A stretch of DNA of 64,000 nucleotides from Owenia fusiformis (lineage: Eukaryota > Annelida > Polychaeta > Sabellida > Oweniidae), in contig CAIIXF020000009.1 in the NCBI GenBank assembly GCA_903813345.2, positions 17,759,759 through 17,823,758 of the forward strand, given 5' to 3'. Position 1 is the stretch's first letter. Every line of letters starts with the position of its first letter. The translations under genes were made by a program, and so were the position numbers. Under the pieces are notes generated by a model. The model was not told where the DNA came from and ran no database searches. It saw only the letters and a list, made by a program, of their open reading frames with translations. Below are positions 12,896-47,652 of the stretch, piece by piece.

Positions 12896-13750
12896 GAAAT
12901 TTAGATTGATCTGTCATCAAGTTCATGTTGATATTCAGCTCCTTGTACATAGAGTGATCTGTCATGAAGTTCATGTTGATATTCAGCTCCTTGTACATAG
13001 AGTGATCTGTCATCAAGTTCATGTTGATATTCTGCTCCTTATTCATAGAGTGATCTGTCATGAAGTTCATGTTGATATTCTGCTCCTTGTACATAGAGTG
13101 ATCTGTCATGAAGTTCATGTTGATATTCAGCTCCTTGTTCATAGAGTGATCTGTCATGAAGTTCATGTTGATATTCTGCTCCTTATACATAGAGTGATCT
13201 GTCATGAAGTTCATGTTGATATTCAGCTCCCTGTACATAGAGTGATCTGTCATGAAGTTCATGTTGATATTCAGCTCCTTGTTCATAGAGTGATCTGTCA
13301 TCAAGTTCATGTTGATATTCAGCTCCCTGCACATAGAGTGATCTGTCATCAAGTTCATGTTGATATTCAGCTCCTTGTTCATAGAGTGATCTGTCATCAA
13401 GTTCATGTTGATATTCAGCTCCCTGTACATAGAGTGATCTGTCATGAAGTTCATGTTGATATTCTGCTCCTTGTACATAGAGTGATCTGTCATGAAGTTC
13501 ATGTTGATATTCAGCTCCTTGTTCATAGAGTGATCTGTCATGAAGTTCATGTTGATATTCAGCTCCTTGTTCAGAGAGTGATCTGTCATCAAGTTCATGT
13601 TGATATTCTGCTCCCTTTACATAAAGTGATCTGTCATGAAGTTCATGTTGATATTCAGCTCCTTGTTCATAGAGTGATCTGTCATCAAGTTCATGTTGAT
13701 ATTCTGCTCCCTTTACATAGAGTGGTCTGCCATCAAGTTCATGTTGATGC
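12896..13750. repeat. 48-bp minisatellite, about 18 copies, open in several frames
   Basis: The unit is GATCTGTCATGAAGTTCATG, then TTGATATTCAGCTCC, then a variable TTGTTCATAGAGT. Because 48 is a multiple of three, long frames stay open on both strands (+ 12894-13877; - 12849-13598 and 13183-13836) with 16-residue periods. Variant bases (CAT/GAT, CAG/CTG, GTA/TTC) do not favour one frame, and some copies introduce a stop in the minus GAEYQHEL frame. That argues for a non-coding minisatellite. No splice context or start context supports a gene. Confidence 0.85.
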
Positions 13751-31851: not shown

Positions 31852-33715
31852 TTATAGAAGTGATTTTGGTGCTGGCATGGGACCTACAATATAATACATA
31901 ACAGTTATATTAATTATTAATTGCATGTATTATCAGAAGAGGCTTAGTAACCATAACACTCTATAATGCCCATATAATACAAAGCAACCAGTTAGGTTAT
32001 TAAAATGTGTTGTCATCTGAGGAAGATAAAATGGTAATGTCTTAAAACTTCTACATGACTGCTAGGCCATGCACTCACCCATGTTGATTTAGAACTTGGA
32101 AGTGAATATTTGAAATGAAGAATGTACATATACTTGATTAAATTTCACACATTTTAGTTGATGACGTCATTTTCTTAGAATCTCTTCCATGTTGAATTTG
32201 AGATGAATGCGAGGGAGAAATGATTTGCGTGATATGAGAGAAGTGGATTTCTATTCAATTCCTTCTGATTAACTGACAATTTAGTTGATGAAATAGCCAT
32301 GCACAAAATTGGTTATATTTAGAATTTAGTGTGAAAATATGAGAGTGTCTTACATTGAGATGTGTATCCATATGATTTGTTTCTGACATTCATCATCCAT
32401 CTACCACCAGATTGTGGGTATATATTCACTTCAATTGTTGGCTTACTAACACAGTTCACTTGGATCATACAGTTGACATTGTTCCATGTGATGTAGATAT
32501 CCCTTGGCAGACATGTGTTGCAGTTATGGGTGTGTCTGGTTCCACTATCAACCAAACCTATGTTCAGACAGGGATTTATAGAGCTTGTTTGAAATGACTT
32601 CAAACTGGAATATCTAAAGGTCTGGTAGTGTTGGACCATTATTATTATTTTATTATGGTTGTTTGGGGATTGGGAGAATGTTGTCATTTGACACTGTTTG
32701 GTTCTGGTCCTGTTTTACTCGTAACTTGTTGTGTTTTTTCTATACTCATTTTATATTTTGAATTCAAGATCTGAGTTATAACATTTATGACAATAAAATA
32801 TTCATATTAACTGTTTGAGCATTAAGAATCATTAAAATACAATCAAATGCCTCTAACTTTATTGGGAAAAGTAAAAAAGGTTATGATAGCATACCAAATC
32901 CCTCAGTTTTGCTGGCAAATACCAAGGTCCAGCCAATCTCATAGCCACTTCTGTTGTCAATTTCTACATGGCATGCTTCAATGCAGGCAAGGGCAGCTTT
33001 AAGGTATAGCGTAAATATGAATTAATGTTGGCAAGGCCAGCTGTAAGGTATAGCTTAGATATATCATAATGTAGGCAATGAAAGCTGTAAGGTATAGCGT
33101 AAATATGAATTAATGTTGGCAAGGACAGCTGTAAGGTATAGCGTAGATATGACATAATGTAGGCAATGAAAGCTGTAGGGTATAGCGTAAATATGAATTA
33201 ATGTTGGCAAGGACAGCTGTAAGGTTAATAGCGAAGATGTATCATAATGAAGGCAATGAAAGCTGGAAGGTATAGTGTAAATATGAATTAATGTTGGCAA
33301 GGACAGCTGTAAGGTATAGCGTAGATATATCATAATGAAGGTAATGGCAGCTGTAAGGTATAGCGTAAATATGAATTAATGTTGGCAAGGACAGCTGTAA
33401 GGTATAGCGTAGATATGACATAATGTAGGCAATGAAAGCTGTAAGGTATAGCGTAAATATGAATTAATGTTGACAAGGGTAGTGGTAAAGTAAGTAAAAG
33501 CATACCTCAATGCATGTGAGAGAAAGTGTAATGAATGAACTTATCTACATATAACCAGTATGGGCTGTATGCATTGTTATATGCCTGTAAATTGTAGTTC
33601 TAAATCTTGTATGAGAGTGATAAAAGTTGCTTTCATAATGATTTTCAGACAAAAAAATAGTGCGAGGTTCAGGAAAGTGTTACTCACCAACGAGCAGACA
33701 CACAATAGCCTTCAT
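31852..33715 (-). CDS. Secreted six-cysteine protein, paralogue A (unknown family)
   Basis: Coding exons 33688-33715, 32895-32996, 32354-32557 and 31852-31883 (TAA) give 121 residues. MKAIVCLLV opens a hydrophobic signal peptide of about 17 residues. The mature part begins CHVEIDNRSGYEIGWTLVF and carries cysteines at 18, 56, 59, 73, 79 and 112, consistent with three disulfides. Other conserved stretches shared with paralogue B are HTHNCNTCLPRDIY, TWNNVNC, NCVSKPTIEVNI, PQSGGRW and the tail CPMPAP. Alternating hydrophobic residues suggest a beta-rich fold. I do not recognise the family; a secreted effector, lectin-like or matrix role is conceivable but unsupported. Exon lengths and phases are identical to paralogue B. 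The intron before exon 2 carries an array of repeated acceptor sites. A TATA box and a non-coding first exon lie upstream (33985-34039). Confidence 0.85.
32990..33470 (-). repeat. About 11-copy 44-bp array of an acceptor site plus exon start
   Basis: On the minus strand the unit is a pyrimidine-poor GCTATACCTTACAG acceptor followed by CTGTCCTTGCCAACATT or CTTTCATTGCCTACATT, a degenerate copy of the true exon 2 start CTGCCCTTGCCTGCATTGAA of paralogue A. The units alternate in two forms (88-bp higher-order period) over about 480 bases directly upstream of the real exon. Two open frames across it are repeat artefacts. Confidence 0.88.
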
Positions 33716-36261: not shown

Positions 36262-37343
36262 TTAAACATAGGATCTTGGTGCTGGCATGGGGCCTGAAAC
36301 AAAGTCACACATGAATTTCATTAATTATACCAATTTTCTAATATACAGTTTTATTTATTTTATTAGAAATAGTCGACCTGTATTGTCTGACTTTAAGAAG
36401 TTAAAATAAACAAGCATTTGTGAACAGACAAATTGCATAAGTAATACCTTATATTGGTGAGTATACTTACACTGCGTGGTTTTCCCAGTTGCTGTGTTTC
36501 TTAGATTCATCACCCATCTTCCACCAGATTGGGGAAAGATGTTCACTTCAATGGTTGGCTTACTAACACAGTTCACATAGATGTAGCAGTTGACATTGTT
36601 CCATGTCACATAGATGTCTCTGGGCAGGCATGTGTTGCAGTTATGTGTGTGTCGTTTGCCACTATCAACCAAACCTACGTAAACATCAACATTTTCTATT
36701 CCATCATTCAAACCCTACTTTTGTTGACAAAATTAAGAAGTGGTGATGTTTGTAGGTTCAAGTAAATACATATTAATTATATAAACTTCATTTATTGAAT
36801 TACATGATACAGTAATAGTATAAGCAAGGAAATGAAGGAATCAATGCATTGTACAATTATATTGACACTCATAGTATGGAAAAACACTTTACCAAAGACC
36901 TTTCCTACATAGTACATTGTTATAATGAACTTATATCATACCATATCCATTGGTTTTACTGGCAAAAACTAGAGTCCAGCCAACTTCATAGCCACTCCTG
37001 TTGTCAATTTCTACATGGCATGCTTCAATGCAGGCAATGACAGCTGTAAAATAATGCAGAAGCATGTAGGCAAGGCAAGAAAACAGGTGTACGAAATGTC
37101 CCTCAATCTTATGGTCTCGGATTGGGATATTAGTACCCGTCCTGTTGGCGCTTACATATTTAATATAAAATATAAACATGGCTCATTGCAGGCAAGAACA
37201 GAATATTTTCTTTTTATGAGAAGTTCTCTTTTTAATACATCATACAACTTGTTCTTCCTGTAACCACATATATTCAATTATTGAAAGCCCATGCTGTAAC
37301 TAGGGGGTTACTTACCAACAAACAAGCAAAGGACCACCTTCAT
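36262..37343 (-). CDS. Secreted six-cysteine protein, paralogue B (unknown family)
   Basis: Coding exons 37316-37343, 36942-37043, 36471-36674 and 36262-36293 (TAA) encode 121 residues: signal peptide MKVVLCLFVAVIACIEA, then CHVEIDNRSGYEVGWTLVF and the same six cysteines as paralogue A (18, 56, 59, 73, 79, 112). The two proteins are mostly identical; they differ mainly in NDIY/YIY strand positions, the TATGKTTQ segment and the last four residues. Exons 1 and 2 continue an untranslated 9-base leader that follows a CAG acceptor at 37353, so an upstream non-coding exon must exist; the exon at 38216-38427 is one candidate. A tandem duplication created the pair; the intron array of paralogue A is absent here, so it arose after duplication. 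Function unknown. Confidence 0.85.
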
Positions 37344-41178: not shown

Positions 41179-42921
41179 TCATCTAGTAGAGTGATTGTTT
41201 ACATGTTTACTTTTCAATTCAGTATCGTCTTCAGTTTGTTCACTTATACTGTCCAATCCTTTGTCAGAATTTAAAACATGTCCATTTCCAATGGGATCCA
41301 TTTCAATATGAGTGTCTCTATCATGTCTGTCATTGTAGGATCTTTCTGGATTAATAAGAGGTCGCTGTACTTCTGGAAATTAAATACTGTTATTTATTTT
41401 TACAGGCACCATCTTAAGTTTGAAAATATGTTCTTATCATTCATTTACTATTGTTCATGACTTTAAAAGTTATTTTAGAGACTTTTGAAAAAAAACTTAA
41501 GGAAAAAAATTGTCCGATTTTTATTTTTCAAATATTCGAATTTTCGCCAATTTTCAAATAAAAGTAAGTTTTTTTCATAATCAAATATTCAACCATTCAG
41601 TGCAAAACTTATTATTTAGGTTGCAAACATGATTTGAAAAAAATTCAAAATTTTTTTAATTCAACTTTTTCTAAATATGCTAAGCTTTCAAAATAAACCA
41701 ATGTTGATTGTCTTATCTAGATTGAAAAGAAGAATATATTGTGTTTTAGATATTATTGTACCATTGGTTTCTATGAACCACTTTCATGCATAGATGAGTT
41801 CATTTCTCGCTTATTTAACAACCGATTCAAAATACGTTGTTATATAACAACATACCTGTAAAATGATGTCCTCCCATGACAGAACTTGTTTTGTGGATAT
41901 TGTGTCCTTTTGCAGTCTTCATGATTTTCTTTTGTTCTTCCTCCTTTGTGGTTTCCTCCTTTCGTTTAGTAATATATAACTTCATTGCGAAAATTGCTAC
42001 AATTGATGCAACAGTTCCAAATAGGCACAGTGCTCCGAAACATATCAGTAAGCCTATTACTATGTATGGTGGAATCGTTATAGTTGATGAACTTGCTAAT
42101 GGATTGAAGTGGGTGTTTATGGCAGATTGTCCTGAGGATTGAATGCTGTTTGGTTTACTTTCCTCCTGTATTTTCTCTTGCTGTTCTATGTACAACCAAA
42201 CTGAAATGATATAAACAATTAAATTATTGGAAATATCTAGGCTATTAGATAAAAGGAATAAACAAAATGTGAGTCAAAATAATCTTCATTTTCATCATTC
42301 TTAATTTTGTGATATCATTATTGGAATGTACATGCAAAATTATATTATAAAATATGGTTTCAAAAATTGTACATCAACTTTGCATTGAGATTGAAATTGA
42401 GATTTCTAAGTTGGTTATAATGTTCCCCATTCAGCCTTTGCTATAATATCTTGAAAAAAGAATTATATTTTCTTGTATTGAACTTAACAGATAATATACT
42501 ACAATATGTAGTACTATTCAACATTGAACTGATTAAGTAATTCTTTCATAAGTATTTGTTGTATGTTTTGATATTTGTTTGTTTTGTAATTTTATCAAAC
42601 AAAAAATGTTTTAGTCCCTCCATCTCATATGTTACCTGGGCAAACTTCATAACAACGTTTTTCCAATTGTGTTAGTCCCTTGACCCTACTCTCAGAGCAA
42701 AAGTCTGTACATCTACTACACTTGTCAACTCTGTCATCGCAGAAATGTGTCCGCTGATCACATTCAAGTTGGGATTTTCCTCCACATTTCCTGATCCAAT
42801 GTTTGTCTACATCAGTGATGTCAGCATTATTAGTGATGTCAGCATTATCATCAGTGGATACTGTCATAAAATTCAGAACTGGGAGTAGCAAAACAAACCC
42901 GATTTTAAGGAATGTCTTCAT
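41179..42921 (-). CDS. Type I membrane protein with single TNFR-like cysteine-rich domain (long tail)
   Basis: Exons 42636-42921, 41856-42200 and 41179-41372 (TGA) encode 274 residues. Residues 1-22 form a signal peptide (MKTFLKIGFVLLLPVLNFMT). Cysteines at 46, 54, 61, 68, 71, 75, 90 and 94 give C-x7-C-x6-C-x6-C-x2-C-x3-C-x14-C-x3-C, a TNFR-like domain with a long penultimate loop. A stalk rich in Ser/Gln/Glu follows, then a membrane helix at about 140-168 (PPYIVIGLLICFGALCLFGT). The 105-residue tail is Lys/Glu-rich near the membrane, then acidic with SISEQTEDD near the end, which loosely resembles TRAF2-binding cores. Single-domain TNFR relatives include Fn14 and BCMA. It is divergently paired with a paralogue at 45221, sharing cysteine spacing and the phase-1 junction after the last cysteine. 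No death domain is present. A ligand cannot be inferred. Confidence 0.8.
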
Positions 42922-42968
42922 TTTTATGAAATTTGTTGATGAAATCAGACTTTCAGTGGTGTCTTTGT

Positions 42969-42976
42969 TTTATATA
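42969..42976 (-). promoter_or_regulatory. TATA box of the minus-strand TNFR-like gene
   Basis: The minus strand reads TATATAAAAC about 50 bases before the ATG at 42921, leaving a 5' UTR of about 20 bases. Confidence 0.6.
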
Positions 42977-42979
42977 CTA

Positions 42980-45220
42980 CTGAGATTGCTTAGTCTGGAT
43001 TTTTTTAGTAGTCATTCAAAAAGCTATGATTCATGGGAGTGGTATTCCCATTTTAAAGTCCAGAGTGGGAGTGTTGAAAACAAGTATGTCATTCCTTAAA
43101 AATAAACATTATTTTCATAAACAAGCTATTTTTTATTCTATTCAATCCAGTATTTATTAGCTTTAAATGGAAAAATATGATTTAAATGGTTTAGTATATT
43201 TAATGTGCTCTTCTATATTCCACATATTCACATAGATTTATAGCAGAACACAGTAACATAATACACCTATTAACCTAATGCAATAATATTAGGGATTTCC
43301 ATCTGAACTATTTTGAGTGGTTAGTCAGTGTTAACATTGTAGAAAGATCTTGACATTCAAATCTATAAAAGATAAAGTATACCTGTTCAAAGTCCTCTCT
43401 CTTTTAATACCAATGTTTTTCAAGGTGTAATAGTTGTATTACAGAAACTATGATCTAATACATTTGATACATATATCTGATCTGTGTATACATTTTCAAC
43501 AAATCTCAATGTATAAATACATGTTAATGAAATTGAATTAAATCAGTAAATGTGATTTAAAATACATCTGCAAGAGAGATTTATTATAAGAGCTGAGTAG
43601 CAAATAAGAATTTGCTGATCACAAAACTTACAATGAGTCATTGGAATTTTGCAAGAAAAATCAATAGTCTATTGAACAGTATATATATTGTTGATACCTT
43701 GACTATTGTGCATGGATTACTTATTTATAATATGATTTTAGTGATGTGTGGAATTTGTGTAAATTTAAATAACACTTATACTGGACTTGGGAGTTAACAG
43801 ATACAAGTAGAAAATATCTGGAGTAAATTATCTCATAAAACTAACACTGGCAGTAACATCATAAAGTCCCATGTTCTAATAGAAGGAATCCCCAGGCAGC
43901 AAAAACAACTTGATAAATAAGTTTTATGAGATTACTCTATATCTAAGAACCTCCTGAATTGATTTTATTAAGAATATTATCTAAGAAAACTTATTGTTTG
44001 ATATTATTTATTTGACAATAAATTTTATAGCAGTGGCACTGAGAGATGTGTCACTGTTTACATTATACAAACAAGTATGGAAAGCAGAATTATCACTAAA
44101 ATAATTTACCCATTAATTATGTATCAAGTCAAACTAATTCAAATGGTTGATCTCTTGAATTGAAATGTAAAATATATTTTAATTGACATTTTGAGTGCCA
44201 AGGGCAAAGATAGCAACTGAATAAGTTCAAGGGTTGAGACCTGGATTTTCATAAAATATGTATCACCATGCATACAAGTATAAGACAAATACTTCATTAT
44301 ACGTTCATTGGCACGCTGAGATCAGGTATCCATAGTGTAGTTTAGCTTTATTAGAGGTTTCAATTGATGCAATGTTTACTCCATGTATACCTGTAGAGCC
44401 ATAAACTGCCCGAGAACAGCTGTTTTTTGCAGCAATAGCTGGCAGCCAGCCAAGATGTCATGTTGACATTATCTGCACTTTGTGTAGGGGTGGCCTCATC
44501 CAGTGTCCTCCCAGGCCATGTTAGTTGATATCTGAAATAACATTATCCACACACATTTCATTTCAAAGTTAACAGTTAGAATTGTGTTCATGTCTTAGAT
44601 TCATTTCTATCATTGTTTATCTTCCCTGTGGTTTTATTCTCAATAGAGTTCATTTTTCCAGAATAAGTTTGTGTTGAAAATTATAGTCTGCGGTTATGAA
44701 TCAATCATCTCTTAAATTTTGTCTAAGTGTCAAGTTTTTCTATTGAGACTACAATGTGCTGATGGCTTAATGATAAAACACAGTCAGTACAGTACTGATT
44801 GATGTGGAGGTCCCTGAACACGTGGAACATCCTATTTCAACATCTCGACCTGATTTCACAATAGCAGCTCAATAAATGTACTTCTCGTGAATAATGCTCT
44901 TTTTTATTCCTGCACAATTACTCCTATATGTCATAAAAGTCCCTGGATTTATTAGTTGTATATAGGAAATTCTACTCCAAGCACTGAATCAGCTGTGAGT
45001 GTTGTTTACAAGCTGTCAGACTTGAAATCAGGCCATTTGGTTGTAAAAAGAAAGTGTGTTAGTTTGTTAGTTGACACGAGCTAACGCTGAGGTGACACTT
45101 GCAATTGAAATTGATTAGAATAGTTATGAACAAGTGTTTACATAACAAATATACTGAGTTTATTTGAGTTAATAGTATACAAGAAACACTTTGCAGATTT
45201 ACGAAAAAAATAATAGTTAG
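42980..45220. other. Shared upstream region of the divergent receptor pair
   Basis: 2.2 kb of AT-rich DNA without a convincing gene. Short open frames (for example 43612-43797 plus) lack coding character. It must contain the promoter of the plus-strand receptor; no strong TATA was seen directly before 45221. Confidence 0.5.
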
Positions 45221-47652
45221 ATGGAGAAAATATCAGAAAGTACTATGTTTTTGTTTCTTGTTGGATTATGTGCAGTGTATAGTGCAGCACTTCCTTTGAC
45301 TATATCAGACACATTTGGTGAGAAAGAAACATTGACTCAGGAATGCGGCGCAATCAAATGTGATGCAAAAACGCAATACTGCAATATCACAACTCAAGTT
45401 TGTGGGGATTGTGCTGCAACATGCATGTTAAAACTCCACCTTGATATTTCTACAAAAGTCTGGTGTTACAAACATTGTGCTGGTAAGTTTTATATTTAAG
45501 TTATTTATTGTGTTCTGGCAGGAATGTCGTTGTCACAAATCTCATTGTCATAAATGCCCTTATCGTGGGCACAAATTAGGAACCTGGGTTCTCATTGGGA
45601 TGGTATACATTTGTTGTATTTTCATTGTGTCTATATGTTTTGCAGTGAAGCCACTTTTAAAAAAGTGCTAAATTTAAATTCTGGAGTGAATATTTACAAC
45701 ATTAAAAATGGTACTCTGAATACTCAATTCTGGCTGTATTATAACAGGTTGGATGTATTGATATCAAAGCATATCAGGCTATCAGCTCAGTTTACAAGGT
45801 ATACTAAGCTAGGGTAGTACATACAGAATAGAAAACCAATAGACTTATAGATTATTGAATGTGTAAAAAGGTTACATGGAATCATTGTTTGCTCTTCAAT
45901 TTCATACAAGAGTATAGAACCTAAACTATTATTGTGTAACCAGATCATGCCAATAATGTCCATGGTCCACACGGTTGTAGACAGCTTTCAGTCAGGGGTG
46001 GGGGGGTGCGATTACTGCATAACCAATTCAAAATAAAAATAAGATTTTTTTTGAATTTTGCAGAAATTGATGCAACTTCCTTCAAAATTGAGCTAGAAGC
46101 TTCAAATAAAAAGCATTTTAAAGCTCTTTTCTTCTTCTATCTCATGCTATTGCATTCCATCACACCCCCTGGCTACGTCTATGCTCCAGCAACTTGTTGT
46201 TCATTTGTCTGCAAGGCATAAGTACATTGTATGTATTTATTTATTTGTAGATTACTGTTATGTATTTTATAAATATTTTAAAAAAGATTGTTGTGGAGGG
46301 CCTATAAGCTAGTTAATAAATACATCGAGGGAAACATGAGAATTATAATGAGGATGCTAGGATTTCAATTTCAAGAAGCAACCATGTCATCTAGAGCTTG
46401 TTATCTTGAAGTTAGAGAGAGCTTGTATCAATAACATTATTTGATAAGATTAATCAAGGTCTAAAAAGTTGTTAATAATAAAATCTGTATGTTTAGTACA
46501 AAAGTACAATGTTCAAGGGGGTGATAAAAACCGGAGCTGATGATGTAACAGATATAAATTCTGTAGCAGAGTCAATGATCTCATAAAATTCTATGATCTC
46601 CAATTTTTAAGTTGAAAACATAAACATGATAAGGCAGTTGTAATTAATGTTATGTCTATTACACCATTGATTCCCAGTGTTTATAGAAATGGTAACACAG
46701 TTAGACACTCATATATTTATGAGATACCTGGCACATTATCAAATATGTAATAGTTCCTGAGTGAAAATCCCATGATGACATGATACTCTAAAACTAGAAA
46801 AACACAAACTTGGTTAAGTACACTTATGTAATATATTTAGTAAGCATAATTTGACTGAAAGAAGCAACCAATGATAAATCAGATTAAATAATGACAGCTT
46901 AAATGGTATAAGTATTGCAAATATAATGATGGAGATATTTTTAATATGAATATATGCTGAGCTCATTTGCCATTTTGTTTATTTGTTTGTTTAGTGATCT
47001 CATGTTATTGATGAGGATCCACATCCGAATGTTAAACAACATCCTACTAACTTTAACAGACTTGTTTATTTACCCAGCATGGATGAAGCTGTTTATCTGT
47101 AAATAAAGTATTGATCATAGTATTCTGAATTTTGTAAAGTTTATATTGATGACCCCAGCTTTTAAGATAGTTATGGCACTGATCTTTTTTTAAGTTTACT
47201 TGTGAATGCTATATCTGTAGTAGAGTAGCAGCCACTCTCTATAAAGCTCATGGGACTGTAAAACTTTCTAATCTTCATTGGTATTATATGCATTAGACTT
47301 CCTCACCTGATTTATAAATACAAACATTTTGAAATGCAAAATAGTTTAAGACTGTTACATGTATGTTTTATATTTTTCAGTGTATGTGATCCTTCAAGAG
47401 AAAGATACAGATGACGGTAATGCTGTTAACTGTGCCCTGTTCACGCGGCTTTCCCCCTACATCATCATCTTTATGATCATATTCACTGCCATGGTGATCA
47501 TTTTCATCACAGAGAAGGTCTACATGTGCTGGAGGGACAAGAAGGGCTGCTGTAATAAACAAAAATCTGTTCAACGTGTAAAACGATGGAATATTGTCAA
47601 AGTAAAAAGTCCAAGAATACAAGAAATGCAAACCTTGAATGGTGTTGACTAA
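45221..47652 (+). CDS. Type I membrane protein with single TNFR-like cysteine-rich domain (short tail)
   Basis: Exons 45221-45482 and 47381-47652 (TAA) encode 177 residues. The signal peptide is MEKISESTMFLFLVGLCAVY and following AALP. Cysteines at 42, 47, 54, 61, 64, 68, 82 and 86 give C-x4-C-x6-C-x6-C-x2-C-x3-C-x13-C-x3-C, the same spacing as the minus-strand partner from the second cysteine on. The segment KCDAKTQYCNITTQVCGDC fits the start of the TNFR domain pattern. After the phase-1 junction both proteins resume with V[WY]... and a QQEK/QEK motif. The membrane helix is about 113-131 (PYIIIFMIIFTAMVIIFIT), followed by a Cys/Lys-rich tail of 46 residues ending LNGVD. The tail is shorter than and unlike that of the partner. 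Family identity is an inference from cysteine spacing; other small cysteine-rich receptors remain possible. Confidence 0.8.

Follow-up and report, generated by a model that had tools for sequence, protein, structure and literature searches.

What kind of receptor is encoded by two divergent genes of the annelid Owenia fusiformis, each of which carries a single compact cysteine-rich domain (CRD)? The question was raised by a 64,000-nucleotide stretch of this genome (NCBI GenBank assembly GCA_903813345.2, contig CAIIXF020000009.1, positions 17,759,759 to 17,823,758 of the forward strand; hereafter the window), in which an earlier annotation, here called the sequence-only reading, had noticed two tumor necrosis factor receptor (TNFR)-like genes on opposite strands 2.3 kb apart. 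That pair, designated gene A and gene B, is present, and the start codons of the two genes point away from one another. Both encode proteins of the same plan: behind a hydrophobic leader comes a single eight-cysteine domain, which a stalk connects to one transmembrane segment, and a cytoplasmic tail completes the protein. Among known receptors they are most like Grindelwald, the Eiger receptor of Drosophila, and we consider it probable that gene A and gene B are members of a Grindelwald-type TNF receptor family in a lophotrochozoan. Common descent of this family with Grindelwald is likely but unproven, and of the two claims, the one that its members would work like a single-CRD TNF receptor is the stronger.

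The exon models of both genes are readings of the genomic sequence (Table 1). The sequence-only reading had described for each gene a signal peptide, the spacing C-x6-C-x6-C-x2-C-x3-C-x13/14-C-x3-C, a phase-1 intron after the last cysteine followed by a VW/VY...QEK motif, and tails of 105 and 46 residues unrelated to each other, and all of these were recovered. Hydrophobic leaders are found in both proteins; these leaders and the membrane orientation were judged by eye from hydrophobicity rather than with a predictor. A scripted count of the cysteine gaps showed the spacing to be correct, with the first of the eight cysteines left out of it. The donor lies one codon past the last cysteine and is in phase 1 in both genes (CCA G/GT in gene A and GCT G/GT in gene B, the slash marking the exon end), and V[WY]...QEK opens exon 2 of each. 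Hydropathy gave a single transmembrane segment with a peak of 2.60 in gene A and 2.63 in gene B, and the orientation read by eye is that of a type I protein. The gene A tail is about 105 residues long (114 if counted from the 19-residue hydropathy peak) and that of gene B 46, and no clear similarity was seen between them. On the minus strand, some 47 bases upstream of the start codon of gene A, a TATATAAAA string was read by eye.

The eight-cysteine domain provides evidence for a Grindelwald type of receptor. Drosophila Grindelwald (PDB entries 6zsy, 6zsz, and 6zt0) is likewise a single-pass receptor with one eight-cysteine CRD. Its structure joins an N-terminal X2 hairpin to a C-terminal C2 helix-loop-helix, with residue F46 between them, and was described as the first case of both modules in one TNFR fold; mutation of F46 abolishes Eiger binding, probably through a disrupted fold (available portion of PMC8024323). 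Gaps between cysteines were counted in nine domains of the family, which includes the further members described below, with an identical pair on contig C10 counted once; the same nine domains were used for the profile and the scans. In addition to the gaps of gene A and gene B (Table 1), the scripted count gave 6-6-6-2-3-11-3 for the member on contig C2 and 4-6-6-2-3-11-3 for Grindelwald. All nine domains fit the pattern 4/6/7-6-6-2-3-11/13/14-3, in which five of the seven gaps, the x6-x6-x2-x3 run and the final x3, are those of Grindelwald. The two differ in the first gap, which is 4 in Grindelwald and ranges from 4 to 7 in the family, and in the helix loop, which is 11 in Grindelwald and 11 to 14 in the family (longer by 3 in gene A and by 2 in gene B). 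The place of F46, the core aromatic before the third cysteine, is occupied by F or Y in nine of nine domains, and of the places that contact Eiger, those of T51 and H66 hold T and H in gene B.

A total of 177,635 distinct PDB sequences were searched at expect values (E) up to 10. The single match to gene B was Drosophila Grindelwald (E 4.3, with eight of eight cysteines aligned), and the single match to the profile of nine domains was again Grindelwald (E 0.12, 15.7 bits, with seven of eight cysteines within the aligned stretch). When Grindelwald was scored against the family profile with filters and composition correction off, it obtained 27.0 bits, a score reached by 0 of 5,000 full shuffles of its sequence and by 132 of 5,000 shuffles in which the cysteines were held fixed. 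Pfam, which holds models of BCMA/TACI/Fn14-type domains, gave no match of that kind for gene A, gene B, six further members, or the nine domains. The TNFR_c6 model (PF00020), which represents the module of Wengen and the canonical TNFR_c6 receptors of the TNFR superfamily, was matched neither by gene A and gene B (E up to 10) nor by the six further full-length members and the nine domains (E up to 1). The Pfam matches that these proteins and domains did give were weak, under the curated cut-offs, and none was to a TNFR or death domain.

The sequence-only reading had also proposed structure prediction followed by a search against TNFR folds, and both resulting models had Grindelwald, a TNF receptor, as their top match. 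AlphaFold2 models, which were run without templates, showed strands and then helices for gene A (predicted local distance difference test [pLDDT] 79.3, predicted template modeling score [pTM] 0.50) and for gene B (pLDDT 73.5, pTM 0.43). Foldseek returned 24 matches to the gene A model. The Eiger/Grindelwald complex 6zt0 ranked first (E 0.13, probability 0.94), and behind it stood, among others, chains of BCMA, of Grindelwald alone, and of TACI. The gene B model had three matches, two of them to Grindelwald (E 0.79 and 1.8) and the third to Fn14 (E 8.0, probability 0.04). With VIA, gene A aligned to 6zt0 with a Z of 5.3 over 47 residues at 2.3 Å and gene B with a Z of 5.1 over 47 residues at 2.5 Å, and gene A aligned to BCMA with a Z of 2.3 or less; the absence of a family from VIA lists does not exclude that family. 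The domain is predicted by these models to consist of an X2-like beta-hairpin module and then a C2-like helix-loop-helix module with an aromatic F or Y between them, as in Grindelwald, which is both the top structural match and the only sequence match. The description of the pair as single-domain TNFR-like receptors is therefore backed by the cysteine spacing and by two predicted folds of modest confidence. The likeness to Fn14 or BCMA drawn in the sequence-only reading held in part, since BCMA and TACI chains are in the fold list of gene A and Fn14 in that of gene B, but all are ranked under Grindelwald. The CRD of BCMA ends C-x2-C-x3-C...C-x3-C, and it and TACI CRD2 have six cysteines, not eight, as does Fn14 with six. 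BCMA (TNFRSF17) and TACI (TNFRSF13B) share a compact CRD with the family and come next after Grindelwald for gene A; they differ in their lower fold scores and in having no Pfam match in the family. Fn14 (TNFRSF12A) shares a single CRD with a C2 module (available portion of PMC8024323), although its match to the gene B model is weak.

Several results weigh against assignment to the Grindelwald type. The sequence matches of gene B and of the profile are not significant alone, and full-length gene A did not match Grindelwald in the PDB at E up to 10; its seven matches all lay in the tail or transmembrane region (designed trefoil proteins, a viral polyprotein, and integrin beta-3). Nothing was found at E up to 10 when the Grindelwald domain was searched against the genome. 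The fold scores are modest (Z of about 5, with the Foldseek E values and pTM given above), gene B has L at the place of N67, gene A has V at that of T51, and a tree of 10 short domains including one Grindelwald lacked usable support and contained an absurd placement. In addition, most of the signal comes from the cysteine frame and a little from the other residues, because the real score was reached by some of the cysteine-fixed shuffles and by none of the full ones. The cytoplasmic tails, discussed below, add the lack of a canonical TRAF motif. Alternatively, the X2+C2 eight-cysteine plan may have been reached separately from Grindelwald in Lophotrochozoa, by independent origin from a BCMA-, Fn14-, or Wengen-like or multi-domain TNFR, with the product still a TNF receptor. 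We regard this as unlikely. The weak E values, the empty genome search, and the average of 17 bits that cysteine-fixed Grindelwald shuffles still score against the family profile argue for it, ordinary TNFR_c6 genes in the genome (22 rows, 7 of them over the Pfam cut-off) would be a possible source, and the available portion of PMC11377715 also weighs independent CRD origins within arthropods. However, the five gaps are identical across nine of nine family domains and Grindelwald, the non-cysteine positions outscore most of the cysteine-fixed shuffles, and the nine scanned domains have no TNFR_c6 or BCMA/TACI Pfam match, all of which argue against it.

If the proteins are Grindelwald-type receptors, then by analogy with Grindelwald a trimeric TNF-family ligand would bind the hairpin tip and the helix loop, and one ligand trimer would cluster three receptor ectodomains. 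The clustered tails might then recruit adaptors leading to JNK- or stress-type signalling. TNF ligands would be available to the receptors, because 14 rows of TNF-domain exons are over the Pfam cut-off in the genome; the two on the small contig C92 are possibly duplicates. Because gene A and gene B differ at the Eiger-contact places, ligand preference may vary from member to member. No death domain was found in eight proteins (gene A and gene B at E up to 10 and six further members at E up to 1), and a scan with standard TRAF motif definitions found no canonical TRAF motif in the eight assembled tails; a loose tetrapeptide of TRAF2-like type, TKEE, is present in the gene A tail alone. The paralogs probably couple to different or noncanonical adaptors, because the tails examined lack a death domain and a clear canonical TRAF motif, and for the same reason, with the loose TKEE in gene A alone, the signalling output is a guess. 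The C2 member, whose tail was not assembled, is left out of these tail analyses. By the usual motif classes, four of the eight assembled proteins end in PDZ-ligand-like residues (TYV, MMV, LSF, and YSF in C3, C10b, C10c, and C10d1, respectively) and merit attention because Grindelwald binds Veli/Lin7.

Some members, such as gene B, may modulate signalling or be decoys. The fuller form of this proposal, that the short-tailed members including gene B bind TNF ligands without signalling, is compatible with a Grindelwald-type family and seems to us quite unlikely. The gene B tail is short, basic, and without recognised motifs, and the exon-2 frame of one copy (C10:12477371) continues into a repeat and shows no transmembrane segment, as might be expected of a decoy. 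Against this, the tails of other members are longer (counted from the hydropathy peak, the assembled tails measure between 31 and 114 residues), though the C8 tail is shorter than that of gene B, and a P/Q-L-M/I patch, seen by eye in the tails of four of the eight assembled proteins (A, C1, C10c, and C10d1), would suggest a cytoplasmic function. It is very improbable that the proteins are not TNF receptors at all and instead form a lineage-specific eight-cysteine receptor or adhesion family (LDLR-A-like, for example, or of another disulfide-rich fold) with microbial or other ligands: they have no significant homology to any TNFR and megalin, CD320, and LRP2 chains stand low in the gene A Foldseek list (E 5 to 10), but two separate models both top-match Grindelwald, a large share of the other gene A matches are chains of BCMA and TACI, and Fn14 is third for gene B.

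The sequence-only reading had taken the pair for a small paralogous family, and the family proved to be larger, with at least 10 loci including gene A and gene B. The genome searched comprised 498 Mb in 525 contigs, among which C9 contains the window. The loci are the union of five genome searches, in which gene A, gene B, and three relatives were the queries and each single query recovered 4 to 10 of the family loci. The count is a lower bound, and more members may exist, because only the top candidates are scored in the searches and parts of the sequence are N. At 8 of the 10 loci exon 1 ends in a phase-1 donor, followed by an AG acceptor and a V[WYF] restart, and this recurrence led us to reject chance as the source of the joint. 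The intron is exactly absent from the tandem copies C10b (C10:12482685) and C10c (C10:12485389), although their neighbors on C10 keep it; they could have arisen by retrocopying and later tandem duplication or by precise loss of the intron. C10:12473870 and C10:12477371 have an identical exon 1 and lie inside a 3.5-kb tandem duplication. C10:12473500-12476500 is identical to a copy 3,501 bases further on over at least 3 kb, and the two copies of the duplication differ in a TPISSTN stalk repeat. C10:12477371 is counted as a partial copy because of its interrupted exon-2 frame and missing transmembrane segment, so that the family consists of nine apparently complete receptors and one partial copy. 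The first exon of the C2 member, as read, has no clear leader.

Identity in the domain was 24% between gene A and gene B, 51% between gene A and the C1 member, and 35% between gene B and the C2 member. We rejected a simple recent inverted duplication as the source of gene A and gene B because each is nearer to other members of the family. For C10b versus C10c, the ratio of nonsynonymous to synonymous substitution rates was approximately 0.09 in the cysteine domain, 0.68 over residues 95 to 230, and 0.40 overall. The cysteine domain thus looks to be under stronger constraint than the remainder, and the contrast supports no more than this because synonymous divergence in the domain is near saturation. 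Other candidate rows were dropped from the family: C4:28354931, C1:38437200, C8:8178560, and five similar rows, as a dispersed low-complexity repeat (judged on the three named); C6:14496527, C5:41425648, and C11:20718265, which have no eight-cysteine frame; and C9:36907690, which has a G-protein-coupled receptor-like frame and no eight-cysteine frame. C8:32142603 (E 1.89) was left outside the count.

Table 1. Positions of the two receptor genes in the window, of the family loci, and of paired ligand and receptor exons on contig C2
Feature	Position	Strand	Description
Gene A, whole	42921-41179	minus	three exons, 274 aa
Gene A, exon 1	42636..42921	minus	hydrophobic leader and eight-cysteine domain (gaps 7-6-6-2-3-14-3), phase-1 donor
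Gene A, exon 2	41856..42200	minus	VWLYIEQQEK start, stalk, transmembrane segment, start of cytoplasmic tail
Gene A, exon 3	41179..41372	minus	remaining cytoplasmic tail from EVQRPLI, stop included
Gene B, whole	45221-47652	plus	two exons, 177 aa
Gene B, exon 1	45221..45482	plus	hydrophobic leader and eight-cysteine domain (gaps 4-6-6-2-3-13-3), phase-1 donor
Gene B, exon 2	47381..47652	plus	VYVILQEK start, short stalk, transmembrane segment, 46-residue tail, stop
Region between gene A and gene B start codons	42922..45220	none	2.3 kb
Family loci on C9			gene A, gene B
Family locus	C1:59280766
Family locus	C3:18835288
Family locus	C8:5714830
Family locus	C2:21771226
Family locus	C10:12473870
Family locus	C10:12477371
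Family locus	C10:12482685
Family locus	C10:12485389
Head-to-head ligand/receptor exons	C2:20141735/20145046	minus/plus
Head-to-head ligand/receptor exons	C2:20173337/20176346	minus/plus
Head-to-head ligand/receptor exons	C2:20179241/20181441	minus/plus
Head-to-head ligand/receptor exons	C2:20184927/20189697	minus/plus
Head-to-head ligand/receptor exons	C2:17175471/17179232	minus/plus
Head-to-head ligand/receptor exons	C2:29282791/29286906	minus/plus
TNFR-like exon near ligand-side open frame	C2:20181261-20181563	plus

Compared with Grindelwald, the Owenia family differs in being multi-gene, in having scanned tails without a clear TRAF motif, and in its lophotrochozoan host. The Hox genes of the assembly bear the mark of such a host. 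A homeodomain search at E up to 1e-12 gave 15 matches, of which 11 are on the plus strand of C1 between 17.97 and 18.47 Mb, one is at C1:56.85 Mb, and three are on C2. The exon at C1:18257146 continues past its homeodomain with ...NNIEKLTGP, and KLTGP is the Lox5 signature shared by Lophotrochozoa and Platyhelminthes and absent from Ecdysozoa and the deuterostome groups that were surveyed (available portion of PMC5431905), so that by this signature the genome is lophotrochozoan or that of a flatworm. The isolated C1 match looks like Post1, and the published O. fusiformis genome has its Hox cluster on chromosome 1, with Post1 downstream (available portion of PMC9977687). A search of the assembly for COX1 gave no match. 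Trees of arthropod and deuterostome sequences published in the EMBO Journal in 2024 placed Grindelwald only in pancrustaceans, and its eight-cysteine pattern was there termed unique and derived, with an origin inferred at the pancrustacean base (available portion of PMC11377715); the words "lophotrochozoa" and "mollusc" are absent from the main text of that paper. The suggestion in the sequence-only reading that the family may be undescribed therefore stands in one part only: the architecture is known in flies, and no report of Grindelwald outside arthropods was found in the accessible portion of the open-licence PMC literature. If a multi-gene family of a lophotrochozoan shares this domain plan, the Grindelwald class would be as old as the protostome ancestor, or else the convergence would be striking. 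We are evenly divided on a broader scenario, taken as a whole, in which Grindelwald-type (X2+C2) receptors predate the split between arthropods and lophotrochozoans, an annelid-like lineage expanded them to about nine dispersed genes and a partial copy, diversified their tails, and expanded its TNF ligands, and the lone Grindelwald of Drosophila is a relict. Surveys of invertebrate TNFRs that rely on Pfam would not pick up such receptors, because none of the nine scanned domains matches a TNFR model. A direct question opened by the family is which TNF ligand of the animal binds which receptor type.

TNF ligand exons on the minus strand stand head-to-head with TNFR_c6-like exons on the plus strand, 1.8 to 4.4 kb apart, at six places on contig C2 (Table 1). 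These places account for 6 of the 14 TNF ligand exons, and all six receptor exons are under the Pfam cut-off. Repeated TNFR-like cysteine patterns were seen by eye in the three receptor exons that were read (in C2:20172500-20182400 and C2:20140500-20147500). The arrangement looks like a set of co-duplicated divergent gene pairs, and one combined-term literature search for divergent TNF ligand-receptor pairs found nothing related. At C2:20180202-20180783, on the minus strand, lies an open frame that encodes a transmembrane stretch as well as a basic RKKR site and that ends fewer than 500 bases from a TNFR-like exon (Table 1). This frame is perhaps a ligand 5' exon, and the spacing between the two is compatible with a shared bidirectional promoter.

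Elsewhere in the window, two similar open frames on the minus strand, at 32319-32687 and 36355-36711, share HTHNCNTCLPRDIY.TWNNVNC...VNCVSKPTIEVN. Neither has a Pfam match, and they are perhaps tandem cysteine-containing paralogs. Rfam gave no match at gathering scores over the whole window. At 12902-13748 lies a 48-base minisatellite of 17.6 copies with 93% matches, which has long open frames on both strands.

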